DNA from: Pseudomonadota bacterium | GTDB taxonomy: Bacteria; Pseudomonadota; Alphaproteobacteria; SHVP01 | DNA: 51,728 nt | Reading direction: 5' to 3' | NCBI GenBank assembly: GCA_027622715.1 | Contig: JAQBYN010000020.1 | Location: 1 to 51,728, forward strand | In this document: positions 6,925 to 15,027 of the stretch, piece after piece | Layout: each line of letters opens with the position of its first letter | Position numbering within the stretch: position 1 is the first letter of the stretch | Position numbers and translations under genes: made by a program | Notes under the pieces: generated by a model | What the model was told of the DNA's origin: nothing | The model's input: the letters and a program-made list of their open reading frames with translations, nothing else | The model's database searches: none

Positions 6925-7858
6925 GGTGCTTTTCGGAACGGTCCCGGCGTTTCTGGCGATCCTGCTCGGGGGCGCCCTACGCTACCGGCAATTCGTCGCC
7001 GCCGGGGCATGGGCAGAACTCCAGAAGCTGAACTACTACCTGTTTCTTCCAGCCATGTTTGTGTCCGGATTGGCCGGTGGCGTCTACACGGGTGCACCCC
7101 TTCTATCGATCATCGTCGGTGTCGCTGTCGTTCTTGGTGCCGGAAGTGCTGCGATTTGGTTTTGGAAGAGCCAGGTACCACGGGCTGCTGATCTTGGGCC
7201 GCAACTCCTGGAAGGCGCCATCCGCGCCAACGTGCCGTACGGTATGGCGGTGAGCTTTGCGTTTGGCGGTAGTGCCGGACTTGAACTCTTTCTCGTTGCG
7301 GCGGCCGTCTATCTCCCCACAGTGGTGATCGCTGGCGGCCTCTACAGCCAACTCTCCGGCCGGCAAGATCGTGATCCGGATACGGCGCAAGAATACGCGC
7401 TGGCGACCGCGTTTCGTTTGCTCGCACGCAACCCGATTGCAATCGGAATCGTGCTCGGCGTGGGACTCAATGTCCTGAATCTGCCGATCCCAACGGGACT
7501 GGGTCGTGTCGTGCACGTAGCGGGCTTTGCCGCAATGCCTATTGGATTGCTGGCCACGGGTGCAGCCCTCAATATCGCCGGTGCCCAAAACGCCCTCGAC
7601 GCGGCCCGCGTCGCCGTGATCGCCACGCTGGCCTTGAAGCTGCTCGTGTTGCCGGCTGGCGCTGGCCTTATGGTCCTGATATTTGGGCTTTCCGGCCCGG
7701 CTGCGGTCGCTGTCGTCTTGATTTCGGCGCTCCCTTGCCTCGTGCCACGCTTCACGGTTGTCGCCGAGCCAACCCAAGGCATCCTGCCCGGCATCGCAAC
7801 ACTTGCGACGCTACTCTCGGCTGTGACCATTCCCGTTGCGCTTTGGCTCTTTAGCTAA
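6917..7858 (+). CDS. AEC (auxin efflux carrier) family permease
   Basis: 313 aa, about ten predicted membrane spans in two halves ([48 protein letters not shown]; then [75 protein letters not shown]). The half-repeat layout and the [12 protein letters not shown] motif are typical of AEC/PIN-like secondary carriers of the inner membrane, which usually move carboxylates such as malate or malonate; the substrate is not readable. It overlaps ruvX by 8 bp and precedes pyrB by 40 bp, so it is probably co-transcribed with ruvX, though unrelated to pyrimidine synthesis. Confidence 0.88.
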
Positions 7859-7898
7859 GTGTCGACCGCTTCGACGAAACGCTTATAGTAAGGTTTTG

Positions 7899-8870
7899 AT
7901 GACATCCGCCGACGCGAAGCCCTTCCCTCACCGCCATCTGCTGGGCATTGAGCACCTGTCGGCGGACGAGATTTCAGCGCTCCTGGACCATTCGGACGCC
8001 TACGTCGAGCTCAATCGCCGCCCCGAGAAGAAGCTCAACCGGCTGCGCGGTCGCACCCTAATCAACCTTTTCTTCGAAACCTCGACGCGGACCAAGACCT
8101 CCTTCGAGCTAGCCGGAAAACGCCTGGGCGCTGATGTCATTAATATGTCGGTTGAGGGTTCGGCCATTAAGAAGGGGGAGACGCTCATCGATACGGCGAT
8201 GACCCTCAATGCCATGCAGCCAGACGCGATGGTCATCCGTCACCCCGATAGCGGTGCCGCCGATCTGCTCTCGCAAAAGGTCAACGGGTCGGTCATCAAC
8301 GCCGGGGACGGCAGTCATGCCCACCCCACCCAAGCGCTGCTCGACGCAGTAACCATCCGACGGCGTCTGGGCCACCTAAAGGGTTTGACCGTGGCCATTT
8401 GCGGCGATATTCTTCACAGCCGGGTGGCGCGCTCGAACATCCAGTTGTTCGGGAAAATGGGCGCACTGGTTCGAGTCGTCGCCCCGCCCACACTTTTGCC
8501 GGCATCGATCGAACGCTTGGGCGTCGAAGTCCACAACGACATGGTGGCTGGCCTCAAAGATGCCGATATCGTCATGATGCTGCGGCTCCAAACCGAGCGC
8601 ATGAAGGGCGCCTTCGTGCCGTCCATCCGCGAGTACTTTCGCTACTACGGACTTGATCGGGAAAAGCTTGCCCATGCCAAACCCGATGCGCTGATCATGC
8701 ATCCCGGACCGATGAACCGTGGGGTGGAGATCGACACCGAGGTCGCAGACGATATCAACCGAAGTGTCATTCGCGAGCAGGTCGAGATGGGTGTCGCTGT
8801 ACGCATGGCCTGCCTCGACGCATTGGTGCACCAAAAACTTGAGCGGCCGACTGACGTGGCCGCGGCATGA
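7899..8870 (+). CDS. pyrB: Aspartate carbamoyltransferase catalytic chain
   Basis: 323 aa from ATG 7899, which has AAGG 5 bp upstream. Catalyses carbamoyl phosphate + L-aspartate to N-carbamoylaspartate, the second step of pyrimidine synthesis. Visible: [15 protein letters not shown] (carbamoyl-phosphate site), [25 protein letters not shown] and the aspartate-binding [11 protein letters not shown]. An upstream in-frame start at 7836 would lie inside the transporter gene and is rejected. Its stop overlaps the pyrC' start (ATGA), consistent with the known association of such ATCases with an inactive dihydroorotase partner. Confidence 0.97.
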
Positions 8871-10159
8871 GCGACAGAATTGCCTATATCAACGCACGCT
8901 TGCTGGACCCGGCGACGGGCACAGACGGCCCCGGCGATGTGCTGACTATCGGTGACGAAATCGCTGATGTCGGCGCACTTTTCGGCGGTGGACTACCTGA
9001 TGGAAGCATCGTCATTGACTGCGGCGGCCATTGTCTGGCGCCAGGTCTGATTGACATGATGGCGACGTTAGGTGAGCCCGGACGCGAGCATAAGGAAACG
9101 ATTGCCACCGGCACCCGGGCAGCAGCCGTTGGCGGCGTTACGACGGTGATCGCGTCACCCGACACCCGTCCGATCATCGACGAAATCGCGCTGGTCGAAT
9201 TTGTCGAGCGACACGCGCAAGCCACCGGCCAGGTCCGCGTCTTGCCTGCCGCGACCATCACCAAGGGAATGGGCGGTCAGGAGATGACGGAATTCGGCCT
9301 GCTGATGGAGGCAGGCGCCGTCCTGTTTACTGATGGATACAAGAGCATCGTTAATGCGCAAGTCATGCGGCGTGCGCTGTCCTACGCGTCCAACTTCAAC
9401 GCGCTGATTTCCCACCACACCGAGGTACCTGAGTTGGTCGGCGACGGTGTGATGAACGACGGTGAAACGGCAACCCGCTTGGGGCTGAGCGGCATTCCCG
9501 GCATAGCGGAAACCATCATGCTGGAGCGCGATATTCGGATCGTCGAGTTGACGGGCGGACGTTACCACGCGTCGTCGATATCGACCGCCGACTCCGTCGC
9601 CGTGGTACGCCGCGCCAAGGACAAGGGGCTACGGGTTACCTGTGGGGTTGCGCCTTATCATTTCGCCCTCAACGAGAACGAAGTCGGTCACTATCGGACG
9701 TTCGCGAAGGTGAGCCCGCCGCTACGCGGTGAGCGCGACCGCGAAGCGATTGTTGAAGGTTTAGCGGACGGTACGGTCGATGTAATCGCAAGCCATCACC
9801 GTCCGGAAGATCCCGAAGCCAAGCGGCTCCCCTTCGCCCAGGCTGCATATGGCGCCGTTGGGCTAGAGACCTTGTGGCCGATCAGCCTCGAGCTCTATCA
9901 CAAAGGACTAGTCTCTCTGCTCGACCTTCTTGCTCGTTTGACGCTTGGACCGGCAACTATCCTTGGTCTGCCGCAGGGTCGCTTAGCACGGGGCGCACCA
10001 GCCGACCTGCTGATATTCGACGCCGATACGCCGTCACGAATTGATGCGGCCACGTTTCAGAGCAAATCGAAAAATTCGCCGTTCGATCAGCGGCCCGTCC
10101 AAGGCCGCGTCATGCGCACGGTGGTCTCCGGCGCGACTGTCTACGAACAACGTTCGTGA
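8867..10159 (+). CDS. Dihydroorotase-like protein PyrC' (probably non-catalytic ATCase partner)
   Basis: 430 aa, amidohydrolase fold: beta-sandwich start ([26 protein letters not shown]), [35 protein letters not shown], then C-terminal [13 protein letters not shown] and [15 protein letters not shown]. Active dihydroorotases have a metal-binding D-x-H-x-H at the first motif and an Asp in a TDHAPH-type loop; here the first motif is D-M-M-A-T-L and the later one [10 protein letters not shown], so key ligands are absent. Inactive PyrC' paralogues that stabilise PyrB dodecamers are known in Pseudomonas and are common beside pyrB in Alphaproteobacteria. A separate active PyrC should exist elsewhere. 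The start overlaps the pyrB stop. Confidence 0.88.
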
Positions 10160-10165
10160 GCGGCA

Positions 10166-10975
10166 ATGCCTGATCCAGTCGGCGACATCTCCTTCATCTG
10201 GCCGTACTTTGCGGTCTTCATTGCCGCCTATCTGATCGGGTCGATCCCGTTCGGACTAATCGTGACGCGGTTCGCGGGCCTCGGCGACATCCGAAAAATA
10301 GGTTCGGGCAACATTGGAGCGACGAACGTTCTGCGGACCGGCCGTCGTTCACTCGCCGCCCTGACGCTCATCCTTGACGCCAGCAAAGGCGCGATACCGG
10401 TGGTGTTGGCCGACCACTTCTTGTTTCGCGATCAGGCGATCATGGCCGGCGCCGGCGCGCTGCTTGGTCACATGCTCCCTATATGGCTGATCGCCTCCAG
10501 TAAGCACGGCATTGGGTTTGCGCTACGCGAATCGATTCTCTTGGTTGTTGGCGCTGGCGTCACCTTGTTGGGAAAGGAACTCATCAGCGTTGCCGGCGCG
10601 GCGTTGCTGGCGTCCAGTACGATCTTCGCTTGGGGGGGCAAAGGGGTCGCCACCGGGCTCGGCGTCCTCCTCGCAATAAACCCGCCAATCGGCGTCCTCG
10701 CATGCGCCACGTGGCTGATTCTGGCTCTGGTCTTTCGATACTCCTCCTTAGCGGCAGTGGGCGCTTTTGTTACCGCACCTGTTTACGCCGTGATCTTGTC
10801 CAACGTGCCGCTGGATGGCGCTTATTGGTCGGATCCGCAAAGAGTGGAATTTTCGATTTTCGTGGCTGTAGTCATCTTGATCAGGCACGGCGACAACATC
10901 GGGCGGTTGCTCACCGGCGTGGAACCAAAGATCGGAAAGCGCACAGGAGGACCGGACGCCGCGAGGGGAGAATGA
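10166..10975 (+). CDS. plsY: Glycerol-3-phosphate acyltransferase PlsY with an internal insertion
   Basis: 269 aa; most PlsY are about 190-220. Transfers acyl from acyl-phosphate to glycerol-3-phosphate at the inner membrane, the first step of phospholipid synthesis. Motif 1: KIGSGNIGATNVLRTGR (about 44-60). Motif 2 normally reads GHxxPxW, about four residues, then GGKGVAT; here GHMLPIW (about 102-108) and GGKGVATGLG (about 158) are separated by 49 residues that include two hydrophobic stretches (ILLVVGAGVTLLG, LISVAGAALLASSTIFAW). Motif 3: RHGDNIGRLLTG near the C-terminus. The reading frame is intact. It starts 6 bp after pyrC' and ends 4 bp before dprA. Confidence 0.9.
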   Translation: MPDPVGDISFIWPYFAVFIAAYLIGSIPFGLIVTRFAGLGDIRKIGSGNIGATNVLRTGRRSLAALTLILDASKGAIPVVLADHFLFRDQAIMAGAGALLGHMLPIWLIASSKHGIGFALRESILLVVGAGVTLLGKELISVAGAALLASSTIFAWGGKGVATGLGVLLAINPPIGVLACATWLILALVFRYSSLAAVGAFVTAPVYAVILSNVPLDGAYWSDPQRVEFSIFVAVVILIRHGDNIGRLLTGVEPKIGKRTGGPDAARGE

Positions 10976-10979
10976 CGCT

Positions 10980-12080
10980 GTGGCCGTTGCGCACCGCGAG
11001 ATTGTCGACAGGCTGCGGCTCATCCGAAGCGAGTCCGTCGGGCCAGTTACCTATCGCGAATTGGTCCGCCGCTTTGGCACCGCAGGCGAAGCCCTAAGGG
11101 CCATTCAAGACCTTTCCCGCCGCGGCGGACGACAGACACCCCTTCGCCTCGGCAAGGCTGCCGATGCTGAAGCTGAGCTGGCCATGGCCGCGGAACAAGG
11201 CGCCCAAGTTGTCATGCACGGTGATGCCGCCTACCCGGCCCTGTTGCACGAAATACCCGATGCCCCGCCGATCCTATATGCTCTAGGCGACATCGCTATC
11301 CTGAACAATGACGCTGTCGCAATCGTCGGCGCGCGCAATGCGTCTGCCATCGGCATGCGCTTTGCGCGTGAACTCGCGACCGATTTGGGCCGCAGCAATA
11401 TCGTGGTCGTGTCAGGCCTTGCCCGCGGCATCGATGCGGCCGCCCATCGCGGCGCGATCGACACCGCAACAATCGCCGTTGTCGCCGGCGGCCTTGATCA
11501 AATCTATCCGCCCGAGAACGAAGGGCTGTTTCGCGAGATTTGCGAAAAGGGATGCGTCATTTCGGAAATGCCACCCGGCACGGTGCCCCAGGCGCGCCAT
11601 TTCCCGCGTCGCAATCGGATCGTCTCGGGGTCGTCGAAGGCCGTCATTGTCGTTGAGGGCGCTACGCGATCAGGCTCGCTCATTACGGCGCGGCTTGCGG
11701 GCGAGCAGGGCCGCGATGTCTTGGCTGTTCCCGGTTCACCGCTCGACCCGCGCGCCCGTGGCCCCAATGCATTGATCCGGCAAGGTGCGGCGATCTGCGA
11801 ATCGGTCGATGATGTGCTCGCAGCGCTGAGCCTGCCGCGACTGCCTTCGACACGGAACAACGATGACGAGGTGGATCCGGTGCACGATTTCGGAAACGAC
11901 GATACCGAAGCAACACAACGCCACATTCTCGAACGCCTCTCTGTCGCGCCGGTGGACATCGATGAACTCGCGCGAAGCTGCAATGTCCCCTCGCTGCTTG
12001 TGAGCACGTCACTCCTCGAACTGGAGCTCGCCGGACGGGTCCAACGCCTTCCAGGCCATCGCGTCCAATTGTCGGGGTGA
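10980..12080 (+). CDS. dprA: DNA-processing protein DprA (Smf)
   Basis: 366 aa from GTG 10980. DprA loads RecA on incoming single-stranded DNA during transformation. N-terminal SAM-like helical part (IVDRLRLIRSESVGPVTYRELVRRFG), a Rossmann-like core (about 80-290) with AIVGARNASAIG, VVSGLARGIDAAAHRGA, TIAVVAGGLDQIYPPEN, HFPRRNRIVSGSSKAVIVVEGATRSGSLITARLA and VPGSPLDPRARGPNALIRQGA, and a C-terminal winged-helix (about 310-366: ILERLSVAPVDIDELARS). A competing ATG at 10972 overlaps the plsY stop but is out of frame and closes early. The GTG follows plsY by 4 bp; GAGGGG at 10963-10968 is a plausible ribosome binding site. Confidence 0.95.
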   Translation: MAVAHREIVDRLRLIRSESVGPVTYRELVRRFGTAGEALRAIQDLSRRGGRQTPLRLGKAADAEAELAMAAEQGAQVVMHGDAAYPALLHEIPDAPPILYALGDIAILNNDAVAIVGARNASAIGMRFARELATDLGRSNIVVVSGLARGIDAAAHRGAIDTATIAVVAGGLDQIYPPENEGLFREICEKGCVISEMPPGTVPQARHFPRRNRIVSGSSKAVIVVEGATRSGSLITARLAGEQGRDVLAVPGSPLDPRARGPNALIRQGAAICESVDDVLAALSLPRLPSTRNNDDEVDPVHDFGNDDTEATQRHILERLSVAPVDIDELARSCNVPSLLVSTSLLELELAGRVQRLPGHRVQLSG

Positions 12081-12272: not shown

Positions 12273-12345
12273 GCTGGCCGCTCAACATCCGCCCTAGGCC
12301 GCGTTGAGTATCAACGACGAGCCCGAAAACCATAACGCACACCCT

Positions 12346-15027
12346 ATGAACGTTGTCGTCGTCGAATCACCCGCCAAGGCAAAGACGATCAACAAGTATC
12401 TTGGTGACGACTATATTGTGCTGGCAAGCTACGGCCACGTGCGCGATCTGCCTTCAAAAAACGGCTCTGTCGATCCTGATGCCGATTTCGCGATGACATA
12501 TGAAATCGACGCCGGTTCGGCCAAACACCTCAAGGCTATTGCTCAGGCTTTGAAAGGTTCGGATCGCCTCTTCCTCGCAACCGATCCGGATCGCGAAGGC
12601 GAAGCAATCGCCTGGCATGTCTACGCCGCGCTGGGCGAGATGAAGGCGTGCAAGGGCGTCGAGGTGAAACGTGTGGTGTTCCACGAGATCACCAAGAGCG
12701 CGGTTCAAGAAGCCATGCTGCATCCGCGCGATATCGACATGGATTTGGTCAATGCGCAGCAAGCGCGTCGCGCGCTGGACTATTTAGTCGGGTTCACGCT
12801 TTCGCCGGTGCTCTGGCGCAAACTGCCGGGGGCCCGTTCGGCCGGCCGGGTTCAATCTGTGGCGTTGCGTTTGATTTGCGAGCGCGAGCTCGACATCGAC
12901 AAGTTCGTGCCCCAGGAATATTGGTCGATTGCGGCGGACTTTCGGACCGGCGATGGCTCAATTCTTCCGGCCCGACTGGTTCAGCTTCGCGGCAAAAAGC
13001 TCGATAAATTTTCCCTCGCCAATGAAGCCGACGCGCAAAGCGCGCTCGCCCTCATCCAGGCGTCACCCGGGTTCGCTGTGGCCGACGTTGCGGCCAAGGA
13101 AACCGCCCGACACCCACCACCGCCATTCACGACCTCGACCCTCCAGCAGGAGGCGTCCCGCAAATTGCGCTTTGCGGCGCGGCGGACGATGCAGGTCGCT
13201 CAGCGACTCTACGAGGGCGTCACGCTCGGCGGCGAGGTGACGGGTCTTATTACCTACATGCGCACCGATGGTGTTCAGATCGCCAACGAAGCTGTGGCCG
13301 GTTGCCGTCAGGTGATTGGTAGCCAGTACGGCGCGCCCTACGTCCCCGACAGCCCGCGGGTCTATAAGACGAAAGCCAAGAACGCCCAAGAGGCGCATGA
13401 GGCAATTCGCCCGACAGATCTGAGCCGGCTGCCAAGCGATATGGCGAAATACCTTTCGGCTGAACAAGCCCAACTCTATGAGCTTGTGTGGAAACGAACG
13501 ATCGCGAGTCAGATGGCGAGTGCGCGCCTAGAGAATGCGAGCATCGATATTTCCGCGGTTGACGGCAACAGCGCCTTTCGTGCAACAGGCCAAATCATTC
13601 TCTTTGACGGCTTTCTGAAATTCTACCAAGAGGGCCGCGACGACGTCTCGAGCGACGACGCCGATGACAGCGATCGTGCCTTGCCGAAGGTCGCGGTGAA
13701 AGACCCGCTGGAGCACGGCGAGGTCAAGCCCGCACAACACTTCACCGAACCACCGCCGCGTTTCACCGAGGCCACGCTTGTGAAGCGGCTTGAGGAACTT
13801 GGTATCGGCCGTCCCTCGACCTACGCCTCAATCCTGTCGGTCTTGCAGGACCGAAACTACGTTCGACTGGAGAAGTCGCGATTCTTTGCGGAGGATCGTG
13901 GCCAGTTGGTAACGGCGTTCCTGGTGAGCTTCTTCGAGCGGTATGTTGAGTACGACTTCACGGCCGATCTTGAAAACCAACTCGATGAAGTGTCGGCAGG
14001 CAATGTCGATTGGAAAAGCGTTCTGACAGCGTTCTGGCGCGATTTTACCATCGCTGTCGGCGGCACCAAAGAGCTTCGCGTTCGCGAGGTCTTGGACTCG
14101 TTGAATGAAATTTTGGCTGACCACGTTTTCCACCCAAACGAAGACGGCGGCGATCCGCGCAAGTGTCGCGCCTGCGAAAGCGGGTCCTTGAGCATCAAGC
14201 TGGGTAAATTCGGCGCCTTCGTCGGCTGCTCAAACTACCCGGAATGCCGTTTCACCCGCGCGTTGGGCGATGCCGGCGAGGGCGACAACGGGTTGGTCGG
14301 CCCACGTGAACTCGGGGCTGACCCGACCACCGAAGAAGCCATTACGGTTCGCAAAGGCCCCTACGGGTTCTACATCCAGCGTGGTGAGGCTGAAGGCGAT
14401 ACCAAGCCAAAGCGGGTCACGATCCCAAAAGGCGCCGACCCCCACGAGCTGAAACTCGACGAAGCGGTGCGGTTCCTGTCGCTCCCACGGGAGATCGGCA
14501 AGCATCCCGAAACAAGTAAGAAGATCAGTGCGGGCATAGGGCGTTTTGGTCCCTATATTCGGCACGACGGTGATTACCGGTCCCTGGGCGATGACGAAGA
14601 TATTCTGTCGGTTGGGCTCAATCGCGCGGTAGCGCTCCTCGCGGAGCCCAAACGCCGCCGCGGCCCAAAGGTCCTCAAAGCATTGGGCGAGCATCCAAGC
14701 GACGCCAAGGCAGTCGCCGTCCTCGAGGGCCGCTACGGTCCCTACGTTAATCATGGCTCAACCAATGCGACGTTGCCGGGCGGGACCGAACCGGCGGAGG
14801 TCACACTCGAAGTCGCCCTGAGCCTGTTGGCTGAGCGCGAATTGAAGACCGGCGGCGGGAAGAAAACCAAGAAGCCGGCCGCTAAGAAAGCCAAAGCAAA
14901 AAAGGCCAAAGCGAAAAAGGCCAAAGCGAAGCCGAGCGCCAAGGGTAAAGCCAAGAAACCGCGGGCCGCATCCAAACCGGTGAGCAAGACAGCCAAGCCA
15001 GAACCGGCTGCCGCGACTGAAGACTAG
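12346..15027 (+). CDS. topA: DNA topoisomerase I
   Basis: 893 aa from ATG 12346 (MNVVVVESPAKAKTINKYLG), the canonical start; an in-frame TTG at 12304 would add 14 poorly conserved residues. Relaxes negative supercoils by single-strand passage. Toprim domain with FLATDPDREGEAIAWH, the DNA gate with PGARSAGRVQSVALRLICERE, catalytic Tyr in GLITYMRTDGV, and IGRPSTYASILSVLQDR. One Cys4 zinc finger remains (CRACESG...GCSNYPEC, around residues 610-640), then TOPRIM-C repeats each starting with a GRFGPYI/GRYGPYV-like phrase. The extreme C-terminus is a Lys/Ala-rich tail with KKAKA units, as often seen in alphaproteobacterial TopA and thought to aid DNA binding. Its stop is 4 bp before rnr. Confidence 0.97.
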   Translation: MNVVVVESPAKAKTINKYLGDDYIVLASYGHVRDLPSKNGSVDPDADFAMTYEIDAGSAKHLKAIAQALKGSDRLFLATDPDREGEAIAWHVYAALGEMKACKGVEVKRVVFHEITKSAVQEAMLHPRDIDMDLVNAQQARRALDYLVGFTLSPVLWRKLPGARSAGRVQSVALRLICERELDIDKFVPQEYWSIAADFRTGDGSILPARLVQLRGKKLDKFSLANEADAQSALALIQASPGFAVADVAAKETARHPPPPFTTSTLQQEASRKLRFAARRTMQVAQRLYEGVTLGGEVTGLITYMRTDGVQIANEAVAGCRQVIGSQYGAPYVPDSPRVYKTKAKNAQEAHEAIRPTDLSRLPSDMAKYLSAEQAQLYELVWKRTIASQMASARLENASIDISAVDGNSAFRATGQIILFDGFLKFYQEGRDDVSSDDADDSDRALPKVAVKDPLEHGEVKPAQHFTEPPPRFTEATLVKRLEELGIGRPSTYASILSVLQDRNYVRLEKSRFFAEDRGQLVTAFLVSFFERYVEYDFTADLENQLDEVSAGNVDWKSVLTAFWRDFTIAVGGTKELRVREVLDSLNEILADHVFHPNEDGGDPRKCRACESGSLSIKLGKFGAFVGCSNYPECRFTRALGDAGEGDNGLVGPRELGADPTTEEAITVRKGPYGFYIQRGEAEGDTKPKRVTIPKGADPHELKLDEAVRFLSLPREIGKHPETSKKISAGIGRFGPYIRHDGDYRSLGDDEDILSVGLNRAVALLAEPKRRRGPKVLKALGEHPSDAKAVAVLEGRYGPYVNHGSTNATLPGGTEPAEVTLEVALSLLAERELKTGGGKKTKKPAAKKAKAKKAKAKKAKAKPSAKGKAKKPRAASKPVSKTAKPEPAAATED

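Follow-up and report, generated by a model that had tools for sequence, protein, structure and literature searches.

PlsY is the essential first acyltransferase in many bacteria and an antibacterial target. The window (the whole stretch of 51,728 nucleotides analysed here) carries a plsY gene in which motif 2 is split by a long in-frame insert, and this raises the question of what kind of PlsY such a gene encodes. Very probably, the product serves an uncultured alphaproteobacterium as its housekeeping PlsY and has a lineage-specific hairpin insert between the motif 2 halves. This reading draws on sequence, conservation, selection, sole-copy status and intact catalytic residues, together with a modelled core fold; catalysis and the topology of the hairpin we infer.

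A plsY gene with a split motif 2

The reading frame contains no internal stop, and its product scored 150.7 bits against both PF02660 (cut-off 24.1) and TIGR00023 (cut-off 137.2). The PF02660 match was split into two pieces, covering profile positions 1-108 and 87-164, with the insert between them; PF02660 also matched 13 of 13 carriers of the insert in alignment A6. By sequence search, the sole related solved structures were Aquifex aeolicus PlsY (5XJ5; E 1.4e-25) and its liganded forms. Together with the motif alignments, the two profiles bear out the identification of the gene as plsY in the preliminary description. The gene shares the three motifs and the substrate-binding residues with the known PlsY/YgiH proteins (PF02660, TIGR00023; aaPlsY 5XJ5-5XJ9, 7CQM) and has every PlsY property that was checked except a contiguous motif 2. 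The features of the locus are listed in Table 1.

Table 1. Coordinates of plsY, its motifs and insert, and the neighboring genes in the window
Feature	Coordinates	Strand	Evidence
pyrB-like aspartate carbamoyltransferase	7836..8870	+	PF02729, PF00185
pyrC-like dihydroorotase / amidohydrolase	8867..10159	+	PF01979
plsY with motif 2 insert, glycerol-3-phosphate acyltransferase of 269 aa	10166..10975	+	ORF, PF02660, TIGR00023, PDB relative 5XJ5
Motif 1, GSGNIGATNVLR, residues 46-57 (aaPlsY S35, N37, T41, R45)	10301..10336	+	Alignments A1, A6; roles from PMC5700162
Motif 2 first half, GHMLPIWL, residues 101-108 (H102 = aaPlsY H92)	10466..10489	+	Alignments
Insert of 48 residues (109-156) with two hydrophobic stretches and AW end	10490..10633	+	Spacing, hydropathy, purifying selection, 21 carriers
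Predicted insert helix 1, residues 115-135	10508..10570	+	AF2 models m6aa972f9e243, ma02c8be29793; pLDDT about 50-61, low
Predicted insert helix 2, residues 139-149	10580..10612	+	AF2 models; pLDDT about 43-54, low
Motif 2 second half, GGKGVAT, residues 157-163 (contains aaPlsY G102-A107)	10634..10654	+	Alignments; phosphate-hole role PMC5700162
Motif 3, RHGDNIGRLLTGVE, residues 240-253 (aaPlsY H177, N180, R183, E189)	10883..10924	+	Alignments
dprA	10980..12080	+	PF02481, PF21102, PF17782
topA	12304..15027	+	PF01131, PF01751

Between W107 and G157 the window protein has 49 residues, where canonical PlsY has 4 (e.g. WLKFKGGKG), and the F-x that precedes GGKG in known PlsY is replaced by A-W. 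Measured from GH to GGK, the spacing was 11 in all 46 canonical sequences compared, a regularity of these sequences rather than an experimentally shown requirement, which leaves PlsY membership by profile and residues intact. The same spacing was 56 in the window protein and 51-67 in the 21 carriers, and no intermediate spacing occurred among the 46 canonical sequences and 21 carriers. Spacing counts and alignment with PlsY homologues thus uphold the claim that 49 residues intervene, in frame, where motif 2 normally has four. Most carriers of families f1, f26 and f120 are 257-271 residues long, versus about 190-226 in PlsY/YgiH. The nearest proteins without the insert are canonical alphaproteobacterial PlsYs with a similar N-terminus (from genomes G049, G025 and G016), which are 62-68% identical over residues 1-108; unlike the window protein, they have the spacing of 11.

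Active-site residues

Motifs 1 and 3 had been described as intact, and the alignments agree. The equivalents of the aaPlsY residues are S47, N49, T53 and R57 in motif 1, H102 and G157-A162 in motif 2, and H241, N244, R247 and E253 in motif 3. In an alignment of diverse carriers, 13 of 13 keep S47, T53, R57, H102, G157, G158, K159, V161, A162, S194, H241, N244 and E253; N49, G160 and R247 are each substituted in single carriers. Two carriers, that of f86 and one of f26, have serine for the motif 1 asparagine, and position 160 is alanine in two carriers.

Motif 2 was viewed in older work as a glycerol-phosphate loop, and the preliminary description presented it as such. The crystallographic work corrects this: the main role of the motif is to build the 'phosphate hole' for the acyl-phosphate, and Lys104 contacts glycerol-3-phosphate as well (PMC5700162). 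Mutation of the substrate-binding residues seen in the crystal structure lowers activity (PMC5700162). According to the same source, serine takes the place of the motif 1 asparagine in 6% of PlsY sequences, and alanine is common at the equivalent of position 160. The PlsY active site has been described as relatively rigid, the fold being highly compact and its linkers short (PMC5700162).

Predicted structure of the insert

All 21 inserts contain two 15-residue stretches with mean Kyte-Doolittle values of ~1.7-3.3 and a short turn between them. Positive charges average ~2.5 ahead of the first hydrophobic stretch and ~0.5 in the turn. Since the PlsY active site opens toward the cytoplasm (PMC5700162), this pattern fits the positive-inside rule, given a hairpin with both ends cytoplasmic. 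G144 and W156 are nearly invariant in the 13-carrier alignment.

We ran AlphaFold2 on the window protein and on the protein of a congener (L034), each with a five-sequence alignment in which just two sequences bore the insert. Insert helices were predicted at residues 115-135 and 139-149 in one model, and at 116-134 and 140-151 in the other. Confidence was moderate overall (mean pLDDT 65 and 64), 43-61 in the insert and below 50 at the junction (residues 151-158). The models superposed on 5XJ5 over 191 residues, within model residues 7-258, with Z-scores of 19.9 and 19.6 and rmsd values of 2.5 and 2.7; the best unrelated structures gave Z-scores of 7.4 and 7.7. At this moderate confidence, the superposition reproduces the seven-transmembrane PlsY fold.

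In these models, the PlsY core could fold normally around the insert, which would add about 48 residues and two predicted helices to what is otherwise a canonical seven-helix core. On the question raised earlier of whether the motif halves still meet, the core superposes on 5XJ5 and the two halves probably do meet, the junction being modelled at a pLDDT below 50. Hydropathy, alignments and models likewise support the suggestion that the two hydrophobic stretches fit a topology-preserving hairpin. The modelled second helix of the insert is short, so a half-crossing that replaces part of the membrane-embedded Loop3 would be as possible as a full crossing.

Distribution of the insert

Among 60 relatives searched, the full-length form with the insert was present in eight further genomes, seven from the window's own family and one from outside it. 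When aligned, these are 48-77% identical to the window protein, and the insert aligns ungapped save for one extra residue in the f26 sequence. A profile search of 385 genomes sampled evenly across the class gave 12 carriers, in families f1, f26, f120, f78 and f86. Each of the 12 matched the profile in one continuous piece, whereas canonical PlsY matched its first 110 positions only, at this threshold; with a broader profile, the set of 12 was unchanged. Order-level searches added five f78 carriers, and no further carriers appeared down to E 1e-52 among 398 genomes sampled across the phylum, a search that very diverged carriers might escape. The total is 21 carriers in five alphaproteobacterial families, with the insert at one exact site.

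The insert is not a standard feature of a large known PlsY subfamily; it is the rule only in a small number of lineages, most of which look uncultured, and we found no description of it in the open-access literature. The insert-bearing PlsY is a real variant of an essential enzyme, conserved and confined to certain lineages.

The N-terminal start MPDPLGD..W is common to f1, f26 and f120 carriers and to several canonical relatives; the f78 carriers L063, L085 and L087-L089 lack it.

Number of origins

The insert may have been gained two or three times independently at one site (once in f1, f26 and f120, once in f78 and once in f86), the loop then being a recurrent landing site for transmembrane hairpins. 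We give this possibility somewhat less than an even chance. When the insert columns were left out of the tree, carriers took up three separate positions, which requires three changes, at least two of them forced by well-supported branches. Within one order, f78 has the insert and f148 lacks it, and the f86 insert does not have the AW ending. However, a single clade of carriers was not rejected (p-AU 0.25, or 0.23 without f86), and the comparison of the f1/f26/f120 inserts with those of f78 scored 19.4, above all 40 shuffles (maximum 12.9). This likeness, which lies chiefly in the G-x10-AW end, suggests one origin for these groups. A single origin for f1/f26/f120 and f78, followed by losses or transfer, with f86 perhaps separate, is a fair guess only.

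An internal duplication had also been proposed, in view of a likeness between the end of the insert and a preceding segment (AGAGALLGHMLPIW and AGAALLASSTIFAW). This likeness extends to 5 of 14 positions and is not conserved in relatives, so that the original argument finds no support. In a fuller form, the insert would be the relic of a tandem duplication of TM3, motif 2 and TM4, the active motif now combining the first half of copy 1 with the second half of copy 2. Insert length and polarity would be compatible with such an event, and the two Pfam profile pieces overlap at positions 87-108. In the f120 carrier L061, moreover, the insert begins, after GHIHPLWL, with KNVKGRGTVTTIAIFVSL, recalling KFKGGKGVATxxG, with a fixed-register shuffle fraction of 0.007 (21 tests, uncorrected). 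Against this, the insert PSSM scored negatively versus both canonical halves, mostly within the range of shuffles, and hhalign comparisons of insert profiles with canonical PlsY gave 8.5-15.3 when 40 column shuffles reached 17.3. We therefore consider the duplication improbable.

Neither of these shuffle tests, PSSM or hhalign, lent support to an internal duplication. The start of the L061 insert resembles a worn KFKGGKGVATxxGxxxAL and is the sole hint of duplication among the 21 carriers.

Copy number, selection and function

In 19 of the 21 carrier genomes, the insert form was the sole PF02660 gene found, including genomes that are 98-100% complete (G094, G128, G005, G006 and G086). PlsX (PF02504) was present in 19 of 20 genomes examined, that of the window among them. 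With the sole PlsY carrying the insert in 19 of 21 carriers and PlsX in nearly all, the protein is almost certainly a housekeeping acyl-phosphate:glycerol-3-phosphate acyltransferase, as judged from sequence and genome content. The presence of PlsX and a mostly single-copy housekeeping locus are further properties shared with PlsY/YgiH. Gene order in the window is pyrB-pyrC-plsY-dprA-topA. Reading of the neighboring ORFs showed pyrC-plsY-dprA also in a canonical relative (L013) and in f78 and f86 carriers, and the canonical plsY of G049 has the same gene neighbors as the window gene.

Among three congeners, pN/pS was 0.24-0.34 in the insert versus 0.18-0.20 in the core; these ratios are rough, as synonymous sites are near saturation. 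The insert is under purifying selection at the protein level, weaker than that on the core.

A second PlsY-like gene was found in two carrier genomes, that of the window (G000, contig C39) and that of a congener (G001, contig C4), and in these two, PlsY activity may have a source besides the insert form. These second copies are the basis for regarding the window gene as a specialised or decaying paralogue, with another PlsY doing the housekeeping. We consider this very unlikely: the insert form is the only PlsY found in the 19 other carriers, its pyrC-plsY-dprA locus is common to a canonical relative, and it has kept its catalytic residues under purifying selection. Taken together, catalytic residues, sole copy, PlsX, locus and pN/pS favor a working housekeeping enzyme far above any other reading.

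The copy on contig C39 (L001 1228-1854, minus strand) encodes a canonical but divergent PlsY-like protein of 208 residues with a GH-to-GGK spacing of 11, and adjoins an ORF that by appearance resembles a TauD-type dioxygenase. The second copy in G001 (L040) is a canonical PlsY of alphaproteobacterial type.

That the insert arose as an error of assembly or sequencing, or is a non-coding segment taken out at the RNA or protein level, has nothing specific in its favor beyond the general error-proneness of MAG-type assemblies and is of negligible probability: the insert occupies an identical site in 21 genomes whose sequences differ, its presence in frame in 20 independent genomes besides that of the window excludes assembly error and chance, it has an open frame, a hydrophobic pattern and selection at the amino-acid level, and inteins are far longer than 48 residues.

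A putative hairpin at the acyl-phosphate hole

As a housekeeping enzyme, the insert-bearing PlsY would convert PlsX-made acyl-phosphate and glycerol-3-phosphate to lysophosphatidic acid. The putative helical hairpin of ~48 residues would follow TM helix 3, which ends in GHxxPxWL and its acyl-phosphate-binding histidine, and would precede GGKGVAT, the membrane-embedded loop that shapes the phosphate hole. It would exit on the cytoplasmic side, cross the membrane or dip deep into it, and re-emerge just ahead of GGKG. Both motif halves would stay in place and the seven other helices would retain the canonical fold.

Such a hairpin may contribute to TM3/TM4 packing or acyl-chain selectivity, or may offer a docking surface to PlsX, PlsC or some other membrane protein. 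Our default guess is a packing add-on that leaves the chemistry unchanged. It is rather unlikely that the hairpin is a functional add-on at the acyl-phosphate hole (PlsX/PlsC docking, gating or selection of the acyl chain) that arose repeatedly at one point, so that a catalytic motif would be split by a membrane-crossing hairpin. A two-helix insertion, apparently tolerated exactly between the two groups lining the acyl-phosphate hole, reveals the true requirements of the active site, and with the insert PlsY nature provides a test of the ways in which membrane enzymes gain helices without loss of topology. The insert site may also mark a docking or regulatory site.

Canonical plsY genes on plasmids and viral contigs

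Among plasmids, the best matches to the insert form were Azospirillum copies, in which the matched DNA spans ~185 codons for 238 query residues, as expected of a gene without the insert. Scans of viral contigs returned three canonical PlsYs only. In IMG/VR, canonical plsY genes (L156 10199-10819 and L100 992-1561, both on the plus strand) lie on two contigs with lengths of 385 kb and 281 kb, near an ORF resembling a DNA methyltransferase; these may represent PlsY of large phages, or bacterial DNA binned as viral.
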